Source: an uncultured Lachnospiraceae bacterium
GTDB taxonomy: Bacteria > Bacillota_A > Clostridia > Lachnospirales > Lachnospiraceae
Assembly: GCA_947175285.1 (NCBI GenBank)
Contig: CAMWMM010000188.1
Coordinates: forward strand, 1 to 8,654
DNA length: 8,654 nt
Direction of reading: 5' to 3'
Shown here: in pieces, positions 1-8,654 of the stretch
How positions within the stretch are numbered: the first letter of the stretch is position 1
How the letters are laid out: the number at the start of each line of letters is the position of its first letter
Translations under genes and position numbers: made by a program
The notes under the pieces: model-generated
What the model was told of the DNA's origin: nothing
What the model saw: the letters and a program-made list of their open reading frames with translations, nothing else
The model's database searches: none

Positions 1-105
1 ACCTAAAGGTTTCGCCTTAAGGCGAGGGTTTTAACCCCATTATACAGACAATAATTTGAAATCCATTTCCGCCATTTCATTGACTATTAAAATTTTCCTA
101 ATTTT
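1..105 (-). other. 5' leader of an operon that continues off the left edge
   Basis: This stretch lies just downstream (minus strand) of the promoter at 106-133, so it should be the untranslated leader of a gene beyond the window. It contains a group of short palindromes: CGCCTTAAGGCG (13-24, a perfect 12-bp palindrome), GGGTT-TT-AACCC (26-37) and the weaker ACC-TAAA-GGT (1-10). They could fold in the transcript. The only reading frames seen are tiny: ATG at 78-80 running 25 codons to a TAG at 3-5, and an overlapping 11-codon one. Neither has a well-placed ribosome binding site and I recognise neither. No gene is called. Confidence 0.4.
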
Positions 106-133
106 ATAATAACAAAATATGGTTAAAGGTCAA
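106..133 (-). promoter_or_regulatory. Promoter of the off-window left operon
   Basis: On the minus strand a TTGACC -35 (128-133) is followed by a 16-bp spacer and a TATTAT -10 (106-111). The -35 begins exactly 6 bp after the CTGCAA that ends the operator at 140-173. The same spacing occurs at the RiPP promoter and the agrB promoter, which is the main support for this call. TATAAA at a 19-bp spacer is an alternative -10. Confidence 0.65.
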
Positions 134-139
134 TTACCC

Positions 140-173
140 TTGCAGAAAGTGGACCTTTTTTGCAGAAAACGGC
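140..173 (-). promoter_or_regulatory. Paired direct-repeat operator 1 (LytTR/AgrA-like)
   Basis: On the + strand two half-sites, TTGCAGAAAGTGGA (140-153) and TTGCAGAAAACGGC (160-173), lie 20 bp apart, close to two helical turns and so on the same DNA face. Paired direct repeats just upstream of a weak -35 are how AgrA and other LytTR regulators bind. On the minus strand the core CCGTTTTC loosely fits the LytTR half-site pattern. Near-identical copies stand at 7507-7540 and 8442-8475. The regulator itself is not in the window, so the identity of the binding protein is inferred. Confidence 0.7.
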
Positions 174-231
174 ACAAAAAAACCTTTCTGATGCACCGTA
201 CCATTCTGAAAGGCTTTTTCTTATACTCAAT
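141..231. repeat. 91-bp direct repeat, left copy (terminator plus operator cassette)
   Basis: This stretch matches 7508-7598 without gaps at 86 of 91 positions. It contains the operator half-sites, an A7 tract, the terminator hairpin and the TGA stop codon of the ABC exporter gene (227-229). Similarity fades just inside the exporter coding region. The two copies flank the whole RiPP operon in direct orientation. Confidence 0.9.
176..219 (-). terminator. Rho-independent terminator of the RiPP operon
   Basis: In the minus-strand transcript, 13 nt after the exporter stop codon, CCTTTC (208-213) pairs with GAAAGG (183-188). Two further pairs extend the stem past a U-U mismatch, and a run of seven U (from 176-182) follows. 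A-rich sequence before the stem can pair with the U-run, so the structure could also work for + strand transcription. The U-run leads straight into operator 1. The right-hand copy at 7543-7585 has the perfect 9-bp version of this stem. Confidence 0.85.
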
Positions 232-1933
232 CTGCTTTTTCCATCATGATCTTTAATTCACTATTTTTACCTATTAATTCATCATATTTCCCTATATCAG
301 CAACCTCCCCTTCCCTTAGCACGACAATCTGATCCACTTCTCTCAATATCTCTTTCTTATGTGTTATCACTATTACTGTTTTTTCTTTCATCTTCGTATT
401 CAGCAGCCCGTTAATCTGCTGCTCTGAATAGGCATCTGTACTTGAAGTAGCTTCATCAAATATAATAATCGGCTTGTCATGTATCAATGCTCTTGCAAGA
501 GCTATCTTCTGTTTCTGTCCGCCGGAAAGCATTGCTCCATTCTGTCCTACCAGATAATCCAAAGAAACCTCTTTTATAAAATCTTCAAGTCCACTGTCCC
601 TGCAGGCTTCTTCTATCATAGTATCATCCACCTGCTTATACAGACAGATATTGTTTCTTATTGTGTCATTAAATAGGTATATCTGCTGGCTTACTACAGA
701 TACCATATTTCGGTATTCCGACAATGACAGTTCTGAAACATTCTCTGCTCCTAGCAATATCTTTCCACTTGCCGGCTCATACATTCTGGTAAGCAGGTTG
801 ATAATCGTTGTCTTTCCCGAACCATTACGTCCGATTATTGCCGTCTTACTGCCTTTTGCAAATAAGATGTCAATATTTTTAAGAATACATTTATCTTTTT
901 CATATGCAAAAGAAACCTGATCCAATTTCAAGTCATTCAGACACAAATCTGCGGTCTTTCCGTTATCCTTTTCTTCTTCTAAATCCATAAATGCATAGTA
1001 TCTTTTTGTTGACGGAATAATCCCTGATAAAAGGTATCCTATATTAAGGATTGCAGAAACCGGTCCAGTTACATAAGCACTATATGTAATGAATGCAAAC
1101 ACGCTACCTACTGAAAGCTGCAAATCAAATACCAGATTAGCACCCAATATATATAACAGTGTGGAAAGGAACTGTACCATAATGCCGTCTATGATCATAT
1201 TCCACTGACTTAACATGTTCATCTGCTTTTGTTTCTCTATAATTTCTTTCTGGTTAAGTACAAATTCCTCATGCTTTTTATCAAAGATATGAAACAGTTT
1301 TACTTCCCGTACTCCCCCGACAGTATCCCCAAACCATCTTGCATATTTCTGATTTTTCTTTATGAACTCGTCCATAATCTGCTTTTGTTTCTTAGCAAAG
1401 TATTTCATCACAACACACTTAATCGGTATAAACAAAAGTACCAGTATTGTCATTCTGAAATCTATGATAAATAAACCGATAATACCACCTGTCATGCTAA
1501 ACACCTGCGTAATTACAAAAAAAACACTGCTATTAGCAATAGAGGTTATCTGGTTTATATCCGTGTTGATATTATTCAGAGTTTCCGCATAATTGGTATT
1601 ATTGAAATAATTTACCTGAAGCTTCATAAGATGTGAAAAAGACTGTTCCGAAAGAAAATACTGTATCTTTGCCGAAATGTCTACACGTTTTTTTTCTTTG
1701 ATTATATCTATAAGGGAATTTATAGTGTAAATTACCATAGATGCCAAAACCAGCTCAATCAGCAATTTCTTATTGCCTCCGATAAAGCCATCGTCTATGA
1801 TCCGCTGGCTGATTAGCGGAATACAAAGATTTAGTCCCGTAGAAATAAACAGACAACAGACAATAGCAATTATAGTTTTTTTGTATCTGTTCAATAACAG
1901 AAGTAATCTCTTTACAGCCTCTTTGTTATCCAT
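227..1933 (-). CDS. ABC exporter, fused membrane and ATPase domains (RiPP export)
   Basis: A half-size exporter of 568 residues, expected to act as a homodimer in the cytoplasmic membrane and to pump out the modified peptide. The N-terminal half carries hydrophobic membrane spans of the type I exporter fold (clear ones near residues 20-45, 60-80, 140-175 and 255-300). The ATPase half has Walker A GRNGSGKT (368-375), Q-loop VVSQQ, signature LSGGQ (469-473), Walker B IIIFDE with catalytic Glu494, and H-loop His525, so it looks active. There is no N-terminal C39 peptidase domain, unlike many bacteriocin exporters; the adjacent subtilase may supply proteolysis. The ATG at 1931-1933 is chosen because GGAGG sits 6 nt upstream; the ATG two codons earlier is too close to that site. 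The start overlaps the protease stop (ATGGATAA), implying translational coupling. It is the last gene of the operon, with a terminator directly after. The substrate is inferred from context. Confidence 0.93.
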   Translation of the reverse strand: MDNKEAVKRLLLLLNRYKKTIIAIVCCLFISTGLNLCIPLISQRIIDDGFIGGNKKLLIELVLASMVIYTINSLIDIIKEKKRVDISAKIQYFLSEQSFSHLMKLQVNYFNNTNYAETLNNINTDINQITSIANSSVFFVITQVFSMTGGIIGLFIIDFRMTILVLLFIPIKCVVMKYFAKKQKQIMDEFIKKNQKYARWFGDTVGGVREVKLFHIFDKKHEEFVLNQKEIIEKQKQMNMLSQWNMIIDGIMVQFLSTLLYILGANLVFDLQLSVGSVFAFITYSAYVTGPVSAILNIGYLLSGIIPSTKRYYAFMDLEEEKDNGKTADLCLNDLKLDQVSFAYEKDKCILKNIDILFAKGSKTAIIGRNGSGKTTIINLLTRMYEPASGKILLGAENVSELSLSEYRNMVSVVSQQIYLFNDTIRNNICLYKQVDDTMIEEACRDSGLEDFIKEVSLDYLVGQNGAMLSGGQKQKIALARALIHDKPIIIFDEATSSTDAYSEQQINGLLNTKMKEKTVIVITHKKEILREVDQIVVLREGEVADIGKYDELIGKNSELKIMMEKAD

Positions 1934-3356
1934 CTTCATCCTCCGTCAATATTGTTATGAGCTGATTTACAATTTTCTCTACAAAATCCTTATCCATTTC
2001 ATAACTACCTATCTTTGACATAACTATATCTTCAATATGAATTTTTGCTAAGTATTTACCATTTACTTTATCAATCTTAACAATAACATCTATTTCTTTA
2101 AAAAGCTGTTTAATATTGTCAGATTTTTCTTTTATTATACTGAATAACACTCCATCATTTTGCTTGTAAAGTGTATGCCTATAAATGAACTCTCTAACCT
2201 TATTCCATTTACTCAGGCATTGTTCTGGTATATATTCTAATTCATACAAAACATTTTCTGGTTTTAAGCCTACTGTATAAATATTGTACTCGCATTCCGC
2301 AAAACCTTTCTTCAACTCTGTAAGCAAAAATATCTCATCCATCTTATTATCAACTTCACATACAATTACAGGAATATCTAACTCATGCTCATTTCCAATA
2401 CAACTGTCGATAAATTTCACCTTATCATTTGGACTCCAAAAAAAACAATTATCTAATTCCTTTCTTATTTTTTCCTTACCAATATAAATAATATGTTTTC
2501 CTAATTGAGCAAACTGATCCAAATCTGATAGTTTATCAATAATAAATGTATCTGCCTGATCCAACTCTCCCTCTGTCACAACATTAAAATAAAAATCAGC
2601 ACGACTTTTATTAATATCGGCGCTAATTACTGCATTACAAATCCAATCAGGTTCATACATTTCATGTAATGTTACTAATAATTCTTTACTATCTTTCCGT
2701 AGAACATGCCGTATTTTAACAATATCTTGAAACTTTTGCTCTATCAAAATCCTACCTATATAAGCAGTTACAAAAGGAGCTGCATAACTGTTACTTTTCT
2801 GAGTAACAGATGCAACTCCACACAATGTTATTGTATGTTCCGATTCCACAAGCACATCTATTCCAAGAAACAAATTTTTTAAATTATCTCTAAAAAATGG
2901 AGACTGTGCCGCAACACCTATTATGTTTGAAAAAGAAGCTGGATATGATTCATACCCACTGTTAGATGTTGCAGCCACAATAACTATCCCCATACATGCA
3001 TAATGGTTTATTAATGTTCTTAATAATGACTTATCCCTAAAATGTGTAGTGCCTAAGCTTAAATTAACTAAATTGATACTTTTTTTTATGCACCAATCCA
3101 ATGCCGGTTTTAAATGCTCTATCATTCCATTCCCTTTTTCATTTAATAACCGTATACTGTATATTTCTGAATTTGAACAATGTTTTTGAATAATAGCTGC
3201 ACATATTGTTCCATGAGCAAAACTTACTTCGCTCATATCTGCATCATCAACAACACATTCTTTTTTTTCATTAATATATACTTTTTCAGATATTTTTTTG
3301 CCCAAAGCCAATTCATCTACACCGTTGTCAATAATTGCGATCTTTATTTTATCCAC
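1926..3356 (-). CDS. Subtilisin-like (S8) serine protease of the RiPP operon
   Basis: A subtilase fold with the catalytic set visible: Asp in AIIDNGVD, His in AHGT, oxyanion Asn in ATSNSG and nucleophile Ser in NSYAAPF (Asp32, His70, Asn154 and Ser212 if counted from the upstream ATG). The usual GTS-M-A-A-P serine box is altered to NSYAAP but keeps the Ser and AAP. About 250 residues follow the protease domain, with no recognised motif. No signal peptide is seen, so it is probably cytoplasmic. The likely job is leader removal or maturation of the Cys-rich peptide, because the exporter lacks a peptidase domain; this is an inference. I prefer the GTG at 3354-3356 (476 residues), which has AGAGGG 8 nt upstream and falls 25 bp after the previous stop. 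The frame is open up to an ATG at 3422 (498 residues), but that start lacks a good binding site and would overlap the preceding gene by 41 bp. Its 3' end overlaps the exporter start. Confidence 0.9.
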   Translation of the reverse strand: MDKIKIAIIDNGVDELALGKKISEKVYINEKKECVVDDADMSEVSFAHGTICAAIIQKHCSNSEIYSIRLLNEKGNGMIEHLKPALDWCIKKSINLVNLSLGTTHFRDKSLLRTLINHYACMGIVIVAATSNSGYESYPASFSNIIGVAAQSPFFRDNLKNLFLGIDVLVESEHTITLCGVASVTQKSNSYAAPFVTAYIGRILIEQKFQDIVKIRHVLRKDSKELLVTLHEMYEPDWICNAVISADINKSRADFYFNVVTEGELDQADTFIIDKLSDLDQFAQLGKHIIYIGKEKIRKELDNCFFWSPNDKVKFIDSCIGNEHELDIPVIVCEVDNKMDEIFLLTELKKGFAECEYNIYTVGLKPENVLYELEYIPEQCLSKWNKVREFIYRHTLYKQNDGVLFSIIKEKSDNIKQLFKEIDVIVKIDKVNGKYLAKIHIEDIVMSKIGSYEMDKDFVEKIVNQLITILTEDEDG

Positions 3357-3381
3357 TCGTATCGCCCTCTTAACAAATTCA

Positions 3382-4128
3382 TCAAATCTTATTATCTTCT
3401 GACATTGCAAAGTTTGCCTCATAAGAAGCTAATGCCTGACTTGTTGTAACACTTTTATCAGCCAAATTAGCTCTCGCATCCTGCACTAATAACTTCTTAT
3501 TTTGCACATATTTCTCATATGCCGTTCTTTCCGCTTGCTTTTTCTGAATCCGCTTTTGCTCTTGCTGCTTTTTCATTTGAGTCTCTAATCTCTTTTTATT
3601 TTCCATCCTACGTTCCCAAAAACTATTTTCTGACTTGTCATTAAAAATTTTATTACCATTTCCATTGTTATATCCCGCACTCCACATTTCTGCATGACAT
3701 TCTTCCTTTGAAGCTCCATAATATATTGTAGAAAATGCTCCTCCGCATATACCTGACCATTTATCCGGCTGTGACCATCCTACCTGTAAATCATTTAATA
3801 CCCATGCCTCGTATTCTGGATCGTTCTTCATCGCCTCAAATCCAGCTTCTGAAATTGTTATGGATATTGACTCGCTTGCTCTTGTAGGATGCATTGGAAT
3901 TTGAGATATTTTATCATAAATGTATTGTTTGTATTCCTCCATTGTCATATCTTTAACGGAAACAGATCCTGTTTTTGAACTTCCAACTATACTTTCACTA
4001 CTTCGACTTTTTTCACTTACGCTTTCCATAAAACTCGTATTTCCCTTTTCTTGAGTCTTAGCTGCATTATTCTGTTGGTACTGGTTGTAAATCCTTGTCA
4101 GGTAGTTTACATTAATTGTATTACTCAT
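3382..4128 (-). CDS. Unassigned 248-residue protein with C-terminal coiled coil
   Basis: Function unknown. Residues 1-60 are polar, low-complexity and rich in Ser, Asn and Gln, so probably disordered. A conserved-looking block follows: MTMEEYKQYIYDKISQIPMH (61-80), then ISEAGFEAMKNDPEYEAWVL (92-111), an aromatic and Gly-rich part with CGGAFSTIYYGASKEE (128-143), and SFWERR (169-174). Residues 175-215 are a highly charged Lys/Gln/Glu helix, likely a coiled coil. From memory this layout matches a family common in Lachnospiraceae (possibly DUF6033), which has no known role and is not a standard RiPP component. There is no signal peptide or membrane span. The start has a strong AAGGAGGAG site. 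It sits 27 bp after the TIGR04066-like gene and just before the protease, so it is co-transcribed with the maturation genes. A scaffold, immunity or recognition role would be a guess. Confidence 0.85.
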   Translation of the reverse strand: MSNTINVNYLTRIYNQYQQNNAAKTQEKGNTSFMESVSEKSRSSESIVGSSKTGSVSVKDMTMEEYKQYIYDKISQIPMHPTRASESISITISEAGFEAMKNDPEYEAWVLNDLQVGWSQPDKWSGICGGAFSTIYYGASKEECHAEMWSAGYNNGNGNKIFNDKSENSFWERRMENKKRLETQMKKQQEQKRIQKKQAERTAYEKYVQNKKLLVQDARANLADKSVTTSQALASYEANFAMSEDNKI

Positions 4129-4155
4129 ATTAATCTCCTCCTTGCTATAAAAGCT

Positions 4156-5229
4156 TTAAAATATTTTAATTTCATCATAACCCGCTAATGTTTCTATTAA
4201 AAATTCTATCATATTTGGATATGTATTTTTACAATATACCTTGTGTGTATAATTTCCACATTGAGCTTCTATTTCTTCATCCTTATGCTCCAAATATTTT
4301 ATCGGCATAACAGAATTGATTGAAAACCTATCTATTGAATAATTACATAAGTAATAACAATCCACATTTACATTATAGCGATAACGCAAAAGGTTGTACA
4401 TTTCATCAAAATATTCCTCTTTATACTCTTCTTTATATAAAGACAAGATTGTAAAGTCAGGATCAACAGCATTTAATATCTCAAATGCTGTTATTCCAAA
4501 GTTCCCTGGCTTTTGTTTAGTAAGTGGAAGCAACTCACCAGGTATTCCAATAACAATTACTTCTGGCTTGTCATTTATCTCCACCTCTTTCAAATATTGA
4601 TTGTAACAAATTATCTTTTCGCTTTCTTTTAACCTCTTTTCATTCATAAATTTCGGAAATGCATGTATATTATCACCATTGTCAAATCTTCTGCTCGAAA
4701 TTAAACTTACATTGTAATCTTCTTCCAACAATGCACTAATAACTTGCATTTCAATCTCAAACGCATTGCATCTAACACCGTTTTCAATAATTGCAATTAC
4801 CGGAACGTTAATATTTTGTAAACCAGCAATATCTTTCTCCCAATTCGCAAAATAATCTTTTTGCATTTCTATTATTTTGACATTATATTTCTTACATATG
4901 TCAGAAACTTCCATTAACTCTGTTTCATTAATATTTCTTGCTATTATAATATTTTTTCCATTTTGGGCAGCTAAATCTATCTGATCTAATATCATTTCAA
5001 ACGGTACAACATGATATGAGTCCACAATAAGAAGTGCTTCCATCTCTTCTATTTCAGTTGCACTCATCTCACTTTTAACGATAAATTGTCTGCTATCTTC
5101 ATGCACCAACATATTATTTATTCCAAATCCCATTGGCGATATAAGTCCGCAAACTTCAAAATGCCAAAACTTCTCATGTTTTATTAACGGTTCTACATAA
5201 TTATCAAAAGGAAATACTACTACTTTCAT
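4156..5229 (-). CDS. RiPP maturation protein, TIGR04066-like
   Basis: A soluble protein of 357 residues with no signal peptide or membrane span. It reads as alternating beta strands and helices: MKVVVFPFD at the N-terminus, EALLIVDSY (64-72), KNIIIARNI (92-100), VPVIAIIENG (142-151) and PEVIVIGIPGE (222-232). This suggests two Rossmann-like domains. VIAIIENGVRCNAFEIE resembles the start of a nucleotide-handling domain, but no proper P-loop is present. I assign it to the clostridial 'peptide maturation system protein' family because that family occurs beside Cys-rich peptides, a CcpM-type radical SAM enzyme and an acyl-carrier-related protein, all present here; the sequence match is from memory. 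The biochemical role of that family is not known to me. The gene starts 11 bp after the maturase stop, with AGGTGG as the ribosome binding site. Confidence 0.75.
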   Translation of the reverse strand: MKVVVFPFDNYVEPLIKHEKFWHFEVCGLISPMGFGINNMLVHEDSRQFIVKSEMSATEIEEMEALLIVDSYHVVPFEMILDQIDLAAQNGKNIIIARNINETELMEVSDICKKYNVKIIEMQKDYFANWEKDIAGLQNINVPVIAIIENGVRCNAFEIEMQVISALLEEDYNVSLISSRRFDNGDNIHAFPKFMNEKRLKESEKIICYNQYLKEVEINDKPEVIVIGIPGELLPLTKQKPGNFGITAFEILNAVDPDFTILSLYKEEYKEEYFDEMYNLLRYRYNVNVDCYYLCNYSIDRFSINSVMPIKYLEHKDEEIEAQCGNYTHKVYCKNTYPNMIEFLIETLAGYDEIKIF

Positions 5230-5240
5230 TTAACTACCAC

Positions 5241-6638
5241 CTAGTTTTCAAAATTATATCCATATTCTCTTAGAGTACAATACTCTACTAAATATTGTTC
5301 AGCTTCTTTTTTCGCAACAGAACATTTTTGAAGTTTTTTCTGAGCAGAAAGCTCGTTTCCTTCTCCAAAATCTGCAGCACATATATTACAAAGATTTAAC
5401 GCCCAACAATTCTTGCATTCTTTTTCTGTCAACTTTCCTGTATTCAATAAATTTAAAACTTTTTCTGTTATAACACCACTTTTTATATCACCAATACAAT
5501 AGACCTCATTTGTCTCGCTTACTCTTTCACACGGATAAAATTTCCCTTCTGCTGTCACAAATAACCTATTATATCCTGCAATACATGGACCATTTGGATG
5601 ACATGTTCCCTTTCTATGATATGGCTTTGTTACCCTCTCATGTATTGAACTCATAAGCAATCCTTTATGAGCTATTATCAGTTTTGAAATGTATCTTTTA
5701 TCCAATTGCCCTGCATAAGCAATAAAACTCTTAAAAAGTTCATAATTATAATTAATATAAAAAGATTCACGTAAGGATACTTCTTGAATAGAATCTCTAT
5801 CACTAACCCCAGTAGAAGTAATTACTGCATCTTTAAGAAAATCATATGTAAAGAAATCACTACTACATGAAAAATCATTCTCTGCATCTATGACTGCATT
5901 AAAACTAATTTTATCCAAATATTGAGGATATAATTCTTGAATCATTTCTATCTTCTTTATTATAACTTCGAATGTCCCATGACAATTATCCGCAAACACC
6001 CTACTTTTATCCTGCACTGATTCTGGTCCATCAAGGCTAACCATAAGGTCAAAATTATGTTTCTGTAAAAAATCAATAATTTCTTCATTTAACAAAGTTG
6101 CATTTGTAGTCATATTTATTCGTAATTCTTTACCTGCAAAAACTCTTTCGCAATATTCAGTAATTTTCTTTATTAAGCTAAATTCTAATAATGGTTCTCC
6201 ACCATACAATCCTATGCGTACTATATCCGCTGCTCGGCTATGTAAATAGTAATAATCAATAGCTTCTTTTGCTATTTGAAACGTCATTCTTTTATTGGTA
6301 TGTACCCGATTTTTATAGCTACCAGAATAAACACAATATTTGCACCTCAAATTACAATTCTGTGTTAATTGCAATATTAATTGCTGCATACCTTCATTAA
6401 GATAACTTTCGATACCAGAAGATGCAGGATGGTCAATAATAATATCTTCTTTAGGTTGCAAGAAGCCATTTTCGTATAATTTCTTTAGCTGTTCTAATTC
6501 TGTAAAATTTTCGTTTTTATATAAAGTATTATACATTTCCTCATTAATTCTAATAATTGAACATGTATTTACATCATAACAATAAAATTGATTTCTTGTT
6601 TTAAACAAGTGAATACAGGGTGCATTATTTAATTCCAT
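5241..6638 (-). CDS. ccpM: Radical SAM/SPASM maturase of Cys-rich peptide (CcpM-like)
   Basis: A 465-residue enzyme expected to use S-adenosylmethionine radicals to modify the Cys-rich precursor encoded just upstream. The first 65 residues look like a small peptide-recognition domain (PqqD-like in pattern). The radical SAM cluster motif is CNLRCKYC (Cys95, Cys99, Cys102), followed by the SAM-binding GGEP (146-149). The C-terminal SPASM region supplies many cysteines for auxiliary Fe-S clusters: 346, 352, 370, 381, 408, 411, 417, 420 and 439. This is the layout of sactipeptide, ranthipeptide and SCIFF maturases, which form thioether links from Cys; that chemistry is likely but not proven here. 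The gene follows the precursor after an 80-bp gap holding a strong hairpin and has AGGAG ahead of the ATG. The CcpM name rests on the operon company (acyl-carrier-related and TIGR04066-like proteins) and length. Confidence 0.9.
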   Translation of the reverse strand: MELNNAPCIHLFKTRNQFYCYDVNTCSIIRINEEMYNTLYKNENFTELEQLKKLYENGFLQPKEDIIIDHPASSGIESYLNEGMQQLILQLTQNCNLRCKYCVYSGSYKNRVHTNKRMTFQIAKEAIDYYYLHSRAADIVRIGLYGGEPLLEFSLIKKITEYCERVFAGKELRINMTTNATLLNEEIIDFLQKHNFDLMVSLDGPESVQDKSRVFADNCHGTFEVIIKKIEMIQELYPQYLDKISFNAVIDAENDFSCSSDFFTYDFLKDAVITSTGVSDRDSIQEVSLRESFYINYNYELFKSFIAYAGQLDKRYISKLIIAHKGLLMSSIHERVTKPYHRKGTCHPNGPCIAGYNRLFVTAEGKFYPCERVSETNEVYCIGDIKSGVITEKVLNLLNTGKLTEKECKNCWALNLCNICAADFGEGNELSAQKKLQKCSVAKKEAEQYLVEYCTLREYGYNFEN

Positions 6639-6665
6639 ATTATATCTCCTAGTCTTGCTTGCAAA

Positions 6666-6696
6666 TGACTGACAGCAAAGTTGTTGCTGCCAGTCA
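6666..6696 (-). promoter_or_regulatory. Intercistronic RNA hairpin between precursor and maturase
   Basis: In minus-strand RNA the 13-nt arms TGACTGGCAGCAA and TTGCTGTCAGTCA pair fully, with one G-U, around a 5-nt loop. On the + strand that pair would be an A-C mismatch, so the structure favours the transcribed strand. Only UUU follows it, so it is at best a weak terminator. It may act as an attenuator or mRNA stabiliser that keeps precursor levels above enzyme levels. Confidence 0.8.
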
Positions 6697-6718
6697 CTAC
6701 AAGATCTACTTCTCTGAA

Positions 6719-6916
6719 TTAGGGAAAAAGGTAATTTGATCCCGACAAAGCTGTTGCCACAATCTTACCCATGTTTGCAGCATATGTGTTAGACTGTGTT
6801 GCAGCAGATGTGCAATTACAAAATGCACTTGATTGGCATACAGAGATACAATCACACGCAAAAGCGGTCATTGTTCCTTCCTGCATATGAGCTTTCTTTC
6901 CTAATTGCTTTTTCAT
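6719..6916 (-). CDS. Cys-rich RiPP precursor peptide (Clo7bot/CLI_3235-like)
   Basis: A 65-residue peptide, the presumed substrate of the adjacent radical SAM enzyme. The Lys-rich start MKKQLGKK leads to GTMTAFACDC, which resembles the G-T-x-x-A-x-x-C-x-C signature I recall for clostridial Clo7bot peptides. Five cysteines are packed between residues 21 and 35 (positions 21, 23, 27, 33, 35: C-x-C-x3-C-x5-C-x-C), each with Ser, Ala, Asn or Thr nearby as possible acceptors. The last 30 residues have no Cys and are rich in Ala, Ser and Asn, ending in NYLFP. The odd number of cysteines argues against a simple disulfide-only product. The ATG at 6914-6916 has a near-perfect AAAGGAGGA site, the best in the operon, as expected for an abundant substrate. 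Where leader ends and core begins cannot be read from the sequence. Confidence 0.88.
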   Translation of the reverse strand: MKKQLGKKAHMQEGTMTAFACDCISVCQSSAFCNCTSAATQSNTYAANMGKIVATALSGSNYLFP

Positions 6917-6984
6917 AGAACAATCCTCCTTTCTCTAGTATTGACAGTAATCTGCCATATAGTATCCTCATTATACATGAGTAG

Positions 6985-7251
6985 CTATACCTTACAATAA
7001 TGCCTTTTTACTGAACTTAAAATATTGTTATACACATCAAATCTGCTTTCTATTACATCTTTTTCATCAAATTTAATATGCAATTCTTTTTCCAATTCCA
7101 TATAAAGTACAAACAAATCTACTGCTTTAAACCCTATTTCTGGTTTAAGTAAACTATCTGCTCTCTGGCTCTCAGTTAATTTTTCTGGATTAAACTTAAA
7201 CTTACTCCTAAATACTGAATACACCTTTTGTTCAATATCCTTATCATTCAT
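6985..7251 (-). CDS. Acyl-carrier-related maturation protein lacking the carrier serine
   Basis: An 88-residue, acidic, all-helical protein, first gene of the RiPP operon. The stretch VDLFVLYMELEKELHIKF (44-61) matches helix II of acyl carrier proteins (compare LDTVELVMALEEEF). In that alignment the phosphopantetheine-bearing Ser of the DSL motif falls on Ala43 (KAVD). An upstream DSLL (32-35) is ten residues too early to be the attachment site. It therefore probably does not carry an acyl thioester and may instead act as a docking or carrier-like partner. It fits the 'acyl carrier-related' family found beside CcpM and TIGR04066 proteins (TIGR04069 from memory). The ATG has GGAG 7 nt upstream and is preceded by a leader of about 215 nt. 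The gap to the precursor gene is 68 bp. Confidence 0.82.
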   Translation of the reverse strand: MNDKDIEQKVYSVFRSKFKFNPEKLTESQRADSLLKPEIGFKAVDLFVLYMELEKELHIKFDEKDVIESRFDVYNNILSSVKRHYCKV

Positions 7252-7313
7252 ACTTTTTCTCCATTATAAAAATCATGATTTCTAAACCCTACTACTATAT
7301 ATATCTTATCGTC

Positions 7314-7354
7314 AAGCGGACTGTACACCGATGGCTTAATTCAACAGTCCGCTT
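7314..7354 (-). promoter_or_regulatory. Leader hairpin of the RiPP operon
   Basis: A perfect 11-bp inverted repeat, AAGCGGACTGT (7314-7324) and ACAGTCCGCTT (7344-7354), encloses 19 nt. In the minus-strand transcript it lies about 60 nt before the first gene, with no U-run after it, so it is not a simple terminator for the operon. On the + strand it is followed by TTTTATT and could stop antisense transcription. A 5' stabiliser, an attenuator or a leftover terminator are all possible. Confidence 0.7.
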
Positions 7355-7406
7355 TTATTGCAGCAATACAATGAACACAATATATTCTATTCCGGTACAA
7401 TAATGT

Positions 7407-7454
7407 TTAGCATACGATTTGAGCTACTAATTTCATTACTATCTTTTCTACCAT
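7407..7454 (-). pseudogene. 15-codon agrB-like reading frame after the RiPP promoter
   Basis: Translates as MVEKIVMKLVAQIVC and then TAA. The first 14 codons align without gaps to the AgrB start MVEKMAIRIINQME: five residues are identical (MVEK and Gln12) and most of the rest are conservative. The first 40 nt match agrB at 27 positions. The ATG also sits at nearly the same distance from its promoter (18 nt after the -10, against 22 for agrB). AAAGGA lies 8 nt upstream, but the predicted transcript starts at about that point, so translation is uncertain. I read it as a remnant of an agrB 5' end carried along with the promoter; a short functional leader peptide is the alternative. Confidence 0.55.
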
Positions 7455-7472
7455 ACCTAATATCCTTTTTTA

Positions 7473-7500
7473 AGTATAAAGAAAAATCAATATAAAACAA
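7473..7500 (-). promoter_or_regulatory. Promoter of the RiPP operon
   Basis: On the minus strand TTGTTT (-35, 7495-7500), a 16-bp spacer and TATACT (-10, 7473-7478) predict a start near 7466. The -35 begins exactly 6 bp after the last CTGCAA of the operator at 7507-7540, as at the other two promoters. The imperfect -35 fits dependence on an activator. It would drive all seven genes from the acyl-carrier-related protein to the exporter, since no other clear promoter or terminator lies between them. Confidence 0.72.
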
Positions 7501-7506
7501 TATACT

Positions 7507-7540
7507 TTGCAGAATGTGGACCTTTTTTGCAGAAAACGGC
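7507..7540 (-). promoter_or_regulatory. Paired direct-repeat operator 2 (LytTR/AgrA-like), RiPP operon
   Basis: Half-sites TTGCAGAATGTGGA (7507-7520) and TTGCAGAAAACGGC (7527-7540) lie 20 bp apart. The promoter-distal half is identical to those of operators 1 and 3, while the promoter-proximal half differs by one or two bases. The site abuts the RiPP promoter and links the operon to agr control. Confidence 0.72.
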
Positions 7541-7598
7541 ACAAAAAAACCTTTCAGATGCACTATACCATTCTGAAAGGCTTTTTCTTATACTTAAT
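7508..7598. repeat. 91-bp direct repeat, right copy (terminator plus operator cassette)
   Basis: Matches 141-231 with 5 substitutions and no gaps. Here it lies between agrD and the RiPP operon. It spans the operator, the A7 tract, the terminator hairpin and a TAA at 7594-7596, where the left copy has the exporter's stop codon. Confidence 0.9.
7543..7585 (-). terminator. Rho-independent terminator after agrBD
   Basis: In the minus-strand transcript TCTGAAAGG/CCTTTCAGA form a perfect 9-bp stem (7572-7580 with 7550-7558) around a 13-nt loop, followed by seven U (7543-7549). It ends the agrBD transcript, and its U-run leads directly into operator 2. Flanking A and T runs could make it bidirectional. 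Confidence 0.88.
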
Positions 7599-7623
7599 TT
7601 TCTTGTTCAACACAATCTTTGAT
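7594..7623 (-). pseudogene. Possible vestige of an exporter 3' end
   Basis: Immediately beyond the cassette the minus strand reads IKDCVEQEN then TAA, in the register of the exporter's LKIMMEKAD then TGA at the left copy. Lys and Glu are identical and several others are conservative. In-frame TAA codons precede it, so only about nine codons remain. The match is short and could be chance, but its position at the same edge of a clear duplication makes a remnant plausible. Confidence 0.35.
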
Positions 7624-7654
7624 TTATTATTATTGCCACATTAACTATTAAATC

Positions 7655-7804
7655 TTAATCCTCTTTCCTTTTCGGTCTTTTCGGCTGATGACCAATTCCC
7701 ATACAAATAGGCGGATCACCCCATATATCTTTTTGAACTTCATTGCGAACAATCCTCTCCACTACCTTGAGTGCCATTTTTTTGATTTTTCCATTTTTCT
7801 TCAT
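7655..7804 (-). CDS. agrD: AgrD-type cyclic autoinducer precursor
   Basis: A 49-residue precursor of the quorum-sensing peptide processed by AgrB. Residues 1-25 form a basic amphipathic helix (KIKKMALKVVERIV) that would hold it at the membrane. The core PPICMGIG contains the only Cys (34), and HQPKRPKRKED is the C-terminal tail. The layout parallels Listeria AgrD, where the ring ACFMFV is followed by YEPKSP, so the predicted pheromone is a five-residue thiolactone ring from Cys34 to Gly38 (CMGIG) with a short N-terminal extension. The tail is unusually basic for AgrD. The start is the ATG at 7802-7804, which overlaps the agrB stop (ATGA) and has GGAGG 8 nt upstream. The frame stays open upstream to 7858, but those codons lie inside agrB. 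A terminator follows at 7543-7585. Confidence 0.85.
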   Translation of the reverse strand: MKKNGKIKKMALKVVERIVRNEVQKDIWGDPPICMGIGHQPKRPKRKED

Positions 7805-8385
7805 TTTACACATACCTCCTGTTTTGTAATTTTTGCCAAACACATCAGAAACGCACATAATATGATAGCCACTGACATATATCCAATATAAAGAATATCA
7901 GCTTTCAGATAAACTAAAACAGCAATTATCATTACTTCAATTAAGACAACCAGTCTTGCCGCTTTCTTAGACTCTTGCAACTCGCTTTTACTCATATCCA
8001 TATTAGGATGGTTTATTGTCCCTATAATACAGATTAAAGTTATTGCAAAAAATAGCAGTCCATACATAATAGGCTGATTTATGCAAAGCATAGGTACAAT
8101 CTGTATAACCACAATATAAGTTATAACCGTCCCTAGATAACACTGCCAAAACTCATACGCATGAAATCCCCCTGTCCGTTTCCTCAAAGAAAGAAAAAAC
8201 ATAATAAAACAAATCGTTGGTAAAAATTGCCTGAATATCAATCCTAAAAGCAACATAGTTCCAACAGTTATAGCATGTTCCACCATACCTATTAATGCAT
8301 ATTCATAATATTCACAGTTTGATTTGCTTATTATCTTTTCCATCTCCATTTGATTGATGATCCTTATTGCCATCTTCTCTACCAT
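7801..8385 (-). CDS. agrB: AgrB-type peptide-processing membrane protease
   Basis: A 194-residue polytopic membrane endopeptidase that cuts the AgrD tail and forms the thiolactone. The family's catalytic pair is present with correct spacing: His75 and Cys82 in GGFHAYEFWQC, seven residues apart as in S. aureus AgrB (His77/Cys84), and preceded by the typical RKRTGG. Hydrophobic spans fall at about 30-50, 55-67, 84-100, 105-122, 144-160 and 165-184. Length is normal for the family. The start ATG has a strong AAGGAGG site. The agrB stop overlaps the agrD start by 4 bp, so the two are translationally coupled. Its own promoter and operator lie immediately upstream, implying autoinduction. The AgrC partner gene immediately upstream appears damaged. 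Confidence 0.93.
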   Translation of the reverse strand: MVEKMAIRIINQMEMEKIISKSNCEYYEYALIGMVEHAITVGTMLLLGLIFRQFLPTICFIMFFLSLRKRTGGFHAYEFWQCYLGTVITYIVVIQIVPMLCINQPIMYGLLFFAITLICIIGTINHPNMDMSKSELQESKKAARLVVLIEVMIIAVLVYLKADILYIGYMSVAIILCAFLMCLAKITKQEVCVK

Positions 8386-8407
8386 AAATATGCCTCCTTA
8401 GTTATTC

Positions 8408-8435
8408 AGTATGAATTATATATATGAAAATTCAA
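8408..8435 (-). promoter_or_regulatory. Promoter of agrBD
   Basis: On the minus strand TTGAAT (-35, 8430-8435), a 16-bp spacer and CATACT (-10, 8408-8413) put the start near 8401, giving a leader of about 16 nt that still includes AAGGAGG. The 6-bp distance from the operator matches the other two promoters exactly. A TATAAT at 8415-8420 is closer to consensus but has no -35 at a workable distance. Confidence 0.65.
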
Positions 8436-8441
8436 GCCATT

Positions 8442-8475
8442 TTGCAGAAAATGGACATTTTTTGCAGAAAACGGC
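8442..8475 (-). promoter_or_regulatory. Paired direct-repeat operator 3 (LytTR/AgrA-like), agrBD
   Basis: Half-sites TTGCAGAAAATGGA (8442-8455) and TTGCAGAAAACGGC (8462-8475) lie 20 bp apart. The site sits between the AgrC-like gene and agrB. An AgrA-type regulator binding here would give positive feedback on pheromone production. Confidence 0.72.
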
Positions 8476-8478
8476 AAT

Positions 8479-8504
8479 AAAATGGTTTTAGAACCAATCA
8501 TTTT
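8479..8504 (-). terminator. Weak terminator after the AgrC-like gene
   Basis: In minus-strand RNA UGGUU-CUAA-AACCA forms a 5-bp stem followed by UUUUAUU, with an upstream AAAA able to extend pairing across a bulge. It begins about 10 nt after the TGA of the kinase fragment. As at the other two boundaries its U-run leads into the operator. The short stem makes it leaky at best. Confidence 0.5.
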
Positions 8505-8514
8505 AACATTGCAT

Positions 8515-8654
8515 TCATGCAGGAATAATAATTGAAAAGTAAAATTCTTTATTCTTATCTTCAATAACATATGCTCCACAATATTTCACTATGATTTTTA
8601 ACACATTCTATATGCCTACACCATCTTCTTCCACATTTGATATTTTCGTAGATT
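8515..8654 (-). pseudogene. AgrC-like sensor kinase, 3' end, interrupted by a TAG stop
   Basis: The reading frame enters from beyond the right edge and gives STKISNVEEDGVGI, then TAG (8608-8610), then 30 more codons in the same frame starting NVLKIIVKYCG and ending EFYFSIIIPA, then TGA (8515-8517). Both sides match the C-terminus of AgrC-type GHKL histidine kinases: DGVGI-x-NV is the ATP-binding G2 box, and the F-x-F-S-I-x-I-P end is typical. Because the frame is kept and only one codon is stop, a single substitution from a Lys, Glu or Gln codon explains it. The shortened protein would lose the last strands and helix of the ATPase domain and would probably be inactive or weak. A sequencing error or suppression of the amber codon are alternatives. 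The rest of the gene, and any agrA, are outside the window. Confidence 0.75.

Follow-up and report, generated by a model that had tools for sequence, protein, structure and literature searches.

The stretch of DNA studied here (8,654 nt, hereafter the window) comes from an uncultured Lachnospiraceae bacterium (assembly GCA_947175285.1, contig CAMWMM010000188.1, positions 1 to 8,654) and carries the quorum-sensing genes agrB and agrD directly upstream of an operon for a ribosomally synthesized and post-translationally modified peptide (RiPP) with the radical S-adenosylmethionine (SAM) maturase CcpM. All genes lie on the minus strand, and in the direction of transcription the order is the 3' end of agrC, operator 1, agrB, agrD, a hairpin, operator 2, the RiPP operon, a second hairpin and operator 3 (Table 1). 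The RiPP operon is of the CcpM/CLI_3235 type and comprises seven genes. A preliminary description of the window had placed agrBD and the RiPP operon side by side, and the PF04647 and TIGR04223 matches directly upstream of the RiPP families bear this out. The span then given, 7251..8475, needs correction, as the operon runs on far beyond it to 227; the agrC 3' end was missed. The acyl-carrier-related partner agrees with TIGR04069 in size and place, while its score stays below the cut-off. In CcpM, the cysteines C95, C99 and C102 are invariant across a 24-row alignment. No Pfam or NCBIfam match was found for the 248-aa protein, and an Rfam search of the window returned no match up to E=1, leaving the 257-bp leader of the RiPP operon without a described RNA family.

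Both systems are preceded by the same 31-bp paired-repeat operator. Three exact matches with a period of 20 bp (0 mismatches each) were found in the window, an outcome seen in 0 of 200 shuffles, with 0.01 matches expected at ≤2 mismatches; the common operators proposed in the preliminary description are thereby confirmed. At operators 2 and 3 a -10-like hexamer (5/6) lies 30 bp past the core. Adjoining operator 3, window positions 1-54 look like the end of a mobile element: these 54 bp are identical to L023 15380-15433, where the copy appears to split a helix-turn-helix gene found whole in L009, and they share 96% identity with L011 18291-18344 (relatives are labelled by stretch, as L001 or L030, and by genome, as G001 or G002).

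Table 1. Features of the window in the order of transcription, with the evidence for each.
Feature	Position	Strand	Evidence or remark
agrC 3' end (histidine kinase C-terminus), cut by window edge	8520..8654	-	frame translation
Operator 1, upstream of agrB	8444..8474	-	TATAAT 23 bp downstream of core
agrB, 194 aa, pheromone-processing membrane protease	7801..8385	-	PF04647 108.7 bits, cut-off 23
agrD, 49 aa	7655..7804	-	TIGR04223 19.8 bits, cut-off 19 (narrow pass); start overlaps agrB stop; alternative start 7813
Terminator-like hairpin between agrD and operator 2	7543..7580	-	9-bp stem, 13-nt loop, T run; read from sequence; within 146-nt repeat
Operator 2, RiPP operon	7509..7539	-	-10-like TATACT at 7473-7478
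15-codon open reading frame, AgrB-like start	7408..7455	-	repeat and DNA match to agrB starts
Acyl-carrier-related protein, 88 aa	6985..7251	-	TIGR04069-like, 47.3 bits, below cut-off 70; size and place fit
Cys-rich RiPP precursor, CLI_3235-type, 65 aa	6719..6916	-	TIGR04065 32.3 bits, cut-off 26
CcpM radical SAM maturase, 465 aa	5241..6638	-	TIGR04068 536.8 bits, cut-off 500
TIGR04066 peptide maturation protein, 357 aa	4156..5229	-	245 bits, cut-off 200
248-aa protein, no family	3382..4128	-	homologues in 30/75 CcpM loci
Subtilisin-like serine protease (S8), 498 aa	1926..3422	-	PF00082 46.4 bits
ATP-binding cassette (ABC) exporter, 570 aa	227..1939	-	PF00664 and PF00005
Terminator-like hairpin with T run, 3' of exporter gene	176..213	-	read from sequence; within 146-nt repeat
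Operator 3, for next operon beyond window	142..172	-	-10-like TATTAT at 106-111
Direct repeat, 146 nt, terminator-operator-promoter module	96..241	-	82% identical to 7463-7608; flanks RiPP operon on both sides

The association recurs in other genomes. A single scan with a CcpM alignment over genome contigs, limited to the best 80 among 219 candidates, yielded 75 CcpM loci, with stretches reaching up to 10 kb either side of CcpM, some of them short. AgrB was found in 25 of these stretches, in 24 on the strand of CcpM, compared with 1.1 expected from the density of AgrB, for which 23 of the genomes were counted (86 AgrB in 104.6 Mb); the 25 include two non-independent pairs, L007/L050 on the same contig and the near copies L009/L052. 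The order agrA-agrC-agrB-agrD beside RiPP genes is seen in Lachnospiraceae, in Eubacterium (L009 is from Eubacterium sp. 14-2), in Petralouisia (L050 is from Petralouisia muris) and in other groups, with a single case from Clostridium brassicae, and in L001 agrA and agrC precede the RiPP genes while agrBD lie within the operon.

The operator follows the same distribution. A profile with a fixed 20-bp period was built from 46 distinct sites and used with a score cut of 12; when 40 stretches were shuffled by single bases (1.45 Mb in all), nothing scored above -1.7. Sites over this cut occur in 26 of the 75 CcpM loci, a within-locus count that is partly selected because the profile came from CcpM loci, which does not apply to the genome-wide scans, and the fixed period misses period-21 agrB operators (14 of 24). 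The Paenibacillus CcpM loci had no scored operator. As a pattern at ≤2 mismatches, the operator was present in 17 of 23 searched genomes, and the reversed control gave one match. By hand tally, 88 of 97 sites at ≤1 mismatch lie on a CcpM contig (G006, with a single site at 2 mismatches, is omitted, and the contigs of G003, G005 and G011 are megabases long). In G003 all nine sites fall inside 42 kb of a 4.0-Mb genome, and in G011 all twelve fall inside 46 kb of 6.7 Mb. When a period of 20-22 bp was allowed, island-type agrB genes (profile over 200 bits) had an operator at ≤2 mismatches in 22 of 24 cases and at 3 mismatches in the other two, mostly 52-65 bp before the start, whereas a second agr type on the same contigs reached 7 to 9 mismatches at best (three rows, two of them one gene). 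Use of the ≤2-mismatch operator as a family-wide census was rejected, as it matched 75 of 397 genomes against 10 for the reversed control, mostly through single 2-mismatch matches. At ≤1 mismatch the family sample held 15 genomes, with G002, G005 and G009 already known; stretches were taken from G138, G412, G362, G144, G218, G272, G323, G297, G084 and G321 and not from G076 or G028, and G297 is the genome of L018, hence not new to the CcpM loci.

The genes that follow the operator were called at 90 sites of the CcpM loci and the window, which amount to 87 distinct contexts on account of overlapping stretches (L052 was dropped as a near copy of L009). With a simple gene caller, the next gene was a RiPP gene at 24 sites, agrA at 8, agrB at 8 and another gene at 44, none being called at 6. 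Among the other genes, inspected in part (26 genes, 10 by Pfam, 5 of these without a family), are some for signal-peptide-like proteins and for helix-turn-helix regulators, and one for a matrixin-like protease; at L030 14828-15517 the operator precedes such a matrixin-like metalloprotease gene with a signal-like N-terminus. The family of the 248-aa protein is often the first gene after the operator (16/90 sites). Overlapping operator matches 20 bp apart, i.e., three half-sites in a row, were noted in L009 (3804/3824), L023 (15192/15212) and L050 (1042/1062), where they precede a small helix-turn-helix-like gene.

The placement of the sites resembles that of known activator sites. Among the 95 sites that exceed 30 bits, 68 have a TATAAT-like box 30 or 31 bp after the core (55 and 13, respectively); in 200 shuffled sets no offset reached a count above 9. 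With the threshold at 12 bits, the box is at the usual offset in 22/25 cases before RiPP genes, 8/11 before agrA, 41/65 before other genes and 5/9 where none was called. If the -10 box is taken to span -12 to -7, the operator is centred near -58. With direct repeats just upstream of -35 at a period of 20 bp, within the 20-22 bp of LytTR/AgrA-type operators, the window sites have the layout predicted for such operators. Passages on the agr P2/P3 promoters of Staphylococcus aureus describe AgrA paired repeats upstream, centred near -60; their -35/-10 spacers are suboptimal (18 and 20), whereas the island consensus has a spacer of ~16 and its targets are peptide operons (PMC4227749). In the LytTR-controlled bacteriocin promoters of Streptococcus mutans, as far as the passages go, paired 9-bp repeats, in most cases spaced by 12 bp and in others by 11 or 13 bp, lie close upstream of -35, most often 10 bp before it; bacteriocin genes as targets are a further likeness, but the HdrRM/BrsRM regulators are membrane-inhibitor systems and not agr (PMC6193735).

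Which regulator would read these sites was addressed through a tree of 73 AgrA-like proteins, of which 38 are other LytTR regulators from three island genomes (G002-G004 have 58 LytTR matches besides the island AgrA, of which 40 were taken and 38 entered the tree). This was a quick tree without bootstrap, from which L052, L076-L098, proteins shorter than 200 aa and those scoring below 140 on the profile were excluded. Of the 27 operator-linked AgrAs, 23 fall into one AgrA clade (26 rows; Shimodaira-Hasegawa-like approximate likelihood ratio test, SH-aLRT, 96), to which not one of the 38 other regulators belongs; this link, like the genes, operators, their positions and their distribution, is read directly from the sequences. 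Among the four operator-linked AgrAs outside the clade, three (L003, L099, L100) share their stretch with a clade member, and the fourth, that of L049, is a second copy; its island encodes another AgrA (L082), which was kept out of the tree and shares 77% identity with a clade member. Three clade AgrAs have no site within 7 kb, with sites further off in two of their stretches and none in the third (L112), and in L111 no operator site exceeds the score cut. Genomes that lack CcpM and were picked up through the pattern only gave ten operator stretches, seven of which carry agrA within ~3 kb of a site (L099 and L100, both among the seven, are near copies). The tie between operator and AgrA thus holds independently of CcpM.

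Downstream of agrB, the predicted AgrD ends in CMGIG before an HQPKRPK tail, and in relatives CSAIY, CAGFF, CFGIG, CGGLL and others stand before a similar tail (a CxxxxHQPKRPK-like pattern). CMGIG is thus the predicted pheromone core, with a putative cleavage site before the tail. The core-and-tail pattern would be as expected of a five-residue thiolactone occurring in several types. By analogy with known agr systems, AgrB would process AgrD into a secreted thiolactone, which at high density would be sensed by AgrC, and AgrC would activate AgrA. AgrA would then bind the paired repeats just upstream of -35 of agrA, agrB and the RiPP operon and turn them on. The operon would yield a CcpM-modified Cys-rich peptide; as judged from the SacP23 cluster discussed below, the subtilase may trim this peptide and the ABC transporter may export it as an antibacterial product. 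Pheromone structure, sensing, AgrA binding and activation are presumed by the same analogy.

Control of the RiPP operon by agr, the circuit put forward in the preliminary description, is well supported at the sequence level by the recurrent order of agr and RiPP genes on one strand, the single AgrA clade, the concentration of operators on CcpM contigs, their presence before 24/24 island-type agrB genes (≤3 mismatches) and not before the second agr type, a promoter geometry like that of known LytTR/AgrA sites, and the proximity of operator and agrA in genomes without CcpM. We consider the explanation as a whole, from pheromone through AgrC and AgrA to the RiPP operon, to be likely.

The DNA around the RiPP genes suggests how they may have come under this control. 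From agrC to operator 2 (8654-7507) the window is 93.8% identical to L030, and in 60-bp steps the identity drops from 95% to 57% at the operator 2 end (break at 7507). From the exporter to operator 3 (1956 to ~130) it is 81-88% identical to 16 of 22 listed stretches, and less alike or not listed in six; the break near 1956, at the S8/ABC overlap, is equally sharp against L002 and L050 (52-68% before, 83-98% after). Between the breaks only pieces are alike in DNA, chiefly parts of the CcpM gene. Protein identity follows the same course: 90% to L030 for AgrB and 84-91% to 15 stretches for the exporter, against 36-41% for the subtilase and 38-53% for CcpM, and gene order differs. On this DNA comparison, the RiPP genes are an insert, a cassette that varies while the agr and exporter DNA at its two ends is conserved, and cassette exchange may have used the repeated operator-terminator modules as homology. 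The hairpin at 7543..7580, part of such a module, is absent from an automated hairpin scan with a loop limit of 8.

Beyond operator 2, the DNA matches the agrB promoter and agrB start of other loci (7566-7417, 83% to L009; 7560-7417, 83% to L042; 7548-7417, 84% to L023). Because of this match and of the AgrB-like 15-codon reading frame, the RiPP promoter resembles a copy of the agrB promoter of a different agr lineage, with the short frame as its relic. The same frame was considered as a conserved leader peptide and rejected, since it matches the agrB start and was not found in the leaders of L030, L035, L049, L058, L038 and L003. A conserved leader of ~250 bp from operator to first RiPP gene, unlike that of the window, was observed in L030 (1494-1800), L035, L049, L058 and L038. 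There is about an even chance that the locus belongs to a pheromone-addressed docking island of Lachnospiraceae, in which a conserved agr switch, a conserved ABC exporter and copied agr promoters would accommodate an exchange of different RiPP cassettes.

Several observations weigh against agr control as set out above. The window itself shows no agrA gene, and AgrA is known from the loci of relatives only. AgrB was not found in 50 of the 75 CcpM stretches, Ruminiclostridium and Paenibacillus included, some of the stretches being short, and among 80 chosen genomes CcpM was found in six, 2 of 12 with an operator at ≤1 mismatch and 4 of 68 without an operator (G076, G030, G047, G104 and G109 were counted for CcpM, not for agr beside it); from these counts, agr is not intrinsic to the CcpM class of RiPPs. 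Three of the ten operator stretches without CcpM show no agrA, and L112 encodes a clade AgrA with no site over the score cut. At operator 1 the -10 spacing is 23 and not the common 30, the same 23 recurring at the agrB sites of L030, L035 and L049, and in the agrB class only 5 of 11 profile-scored sites have the usual spacing. In agrC, an in-frame TAG (~8608-8610) stands 30 codons before the frame end, and the piece after it matches the AgrC profile (32 bits); L001 reads through the same region without a stop, and uninterrupted homologues exist. The TAG may mark a pseudogene or a sequence error, and this agr copy may be deaf. The loss of the kinase C-terminus would favour a variant that keeps the circuit set out above while its switch, in this strain, is deaf or altered, with the RiPP genes expressed from a basal promoter or through cross-talk from another kinase. 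Against it, the TAG may stem from an error of sequencing or assembly in a single record, and agrB, agrD and the RiPP genes are open; we regard this variant, which is compatible with the explanation preferred above, as a tentative possibility.

Two further explanations would deprive agr or the repeats of their role. Another LytTR regulator, or a repressor, could bind the repeats and leave agr a mere neighbour, for which the 31 LytTR matches in G004 offer candidates, AgrA binding being a prediction. However, the operators follow one AgrA clade and not the 38 others (of 58 in three genomes), the sole LytTR match in G001 is the AgrA of the same locus (although this 1.9-Mb genome may be incomplete), and the sites are placed as for an activator, making this explanation improbable. 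It is still less credible, and in our judgement very improbable, that the repeats serve mainly as recombination sites that move cassettes: the DNA break at the operator 2 end and the 146-nt repeat on both sides of the RiPP operon would suit it, but the fixed -10 spacing and the placement before agrA, agrB and many unrelated genes fit promoters, and recombination at repeated promoters is expected anyway.

The RiPP cassette is of an already known kind, and the novelty lies in its control. The SacP23 sactipeptide cluster of Paenibacillus polymyxa #23 shares with the window CcpM (TIGR04068), TIGR04066, TIGR04069, a CLI_3235-type precursor, a subtilase and an ABC transporter, and its product, expressed in B. 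subtilis, is active against several Gram-positive bacteria; agr is not seen in the passages covered, the paper lacks the word quorum, and its five occurrences of words beginning with agr lie outside those passages (PMC10731318). A sactipeptide-like cluster of Roseburia intestinalis L1-82 likewise has TIGR04068, TIGR04066, TIGR04069, a subtilase and an ABC transporter, but no structural gene was found; in the text available, AgrB is absent and quorum occurs once, in another context (PMC4573289). In Clostridium acetobutylicum, according to excerpts, reporters and synthetic pheromone have shown that agr controls the adjoining CA_C0082, a RiPP-enzyme-like gene next to agr as in the window; this is a single LanM-like protein needed for granulose, with other lanthipeptide machinery missing and no radical SAM operon (PMC10301443). 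Co-location of agr and lanthipeptide genes is also in print in that source (PMC10301443), and a passage of another proposes that bacteriocin activity is linked to quorum sensing in a strain of Lachnospiraceae whose genes include those for a cyclic lactone autoinducer, a ranthipeptide and a thiopeptide (PMC11352710). In the parts of the open PubMed Central (PMC) literature covered, no description was found of a CcpM peptide under agr control. The earlier statement that such control is not described thus stands for CcpM peptides to that extent, and has to be qualified by the known cassettes of Paenibacillus and Roseburia and by CA_C0082.

Taken together, the same control site before both agr and peptide genes recurs in many related genomes, whereas the peptide genes differ. 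One operator sequence offers a testable rule for when many Lachnospiraceae would make CcpM-type peptides, for which no account of regulation was found in the literature covered, and the modified peptide is possibly antibacterial. Cxxxx thiolactones, presumably cut from the HQPKRPK-like tail, represent a pheromone class that might switch silent CcpM clusters on. If the docking-island reading is true, any landing cassette would at once come under the same density control and export. In this way, the locus suggests how a copy of a quorum-sensing promoter can recruit new biosynthetic cassettes.

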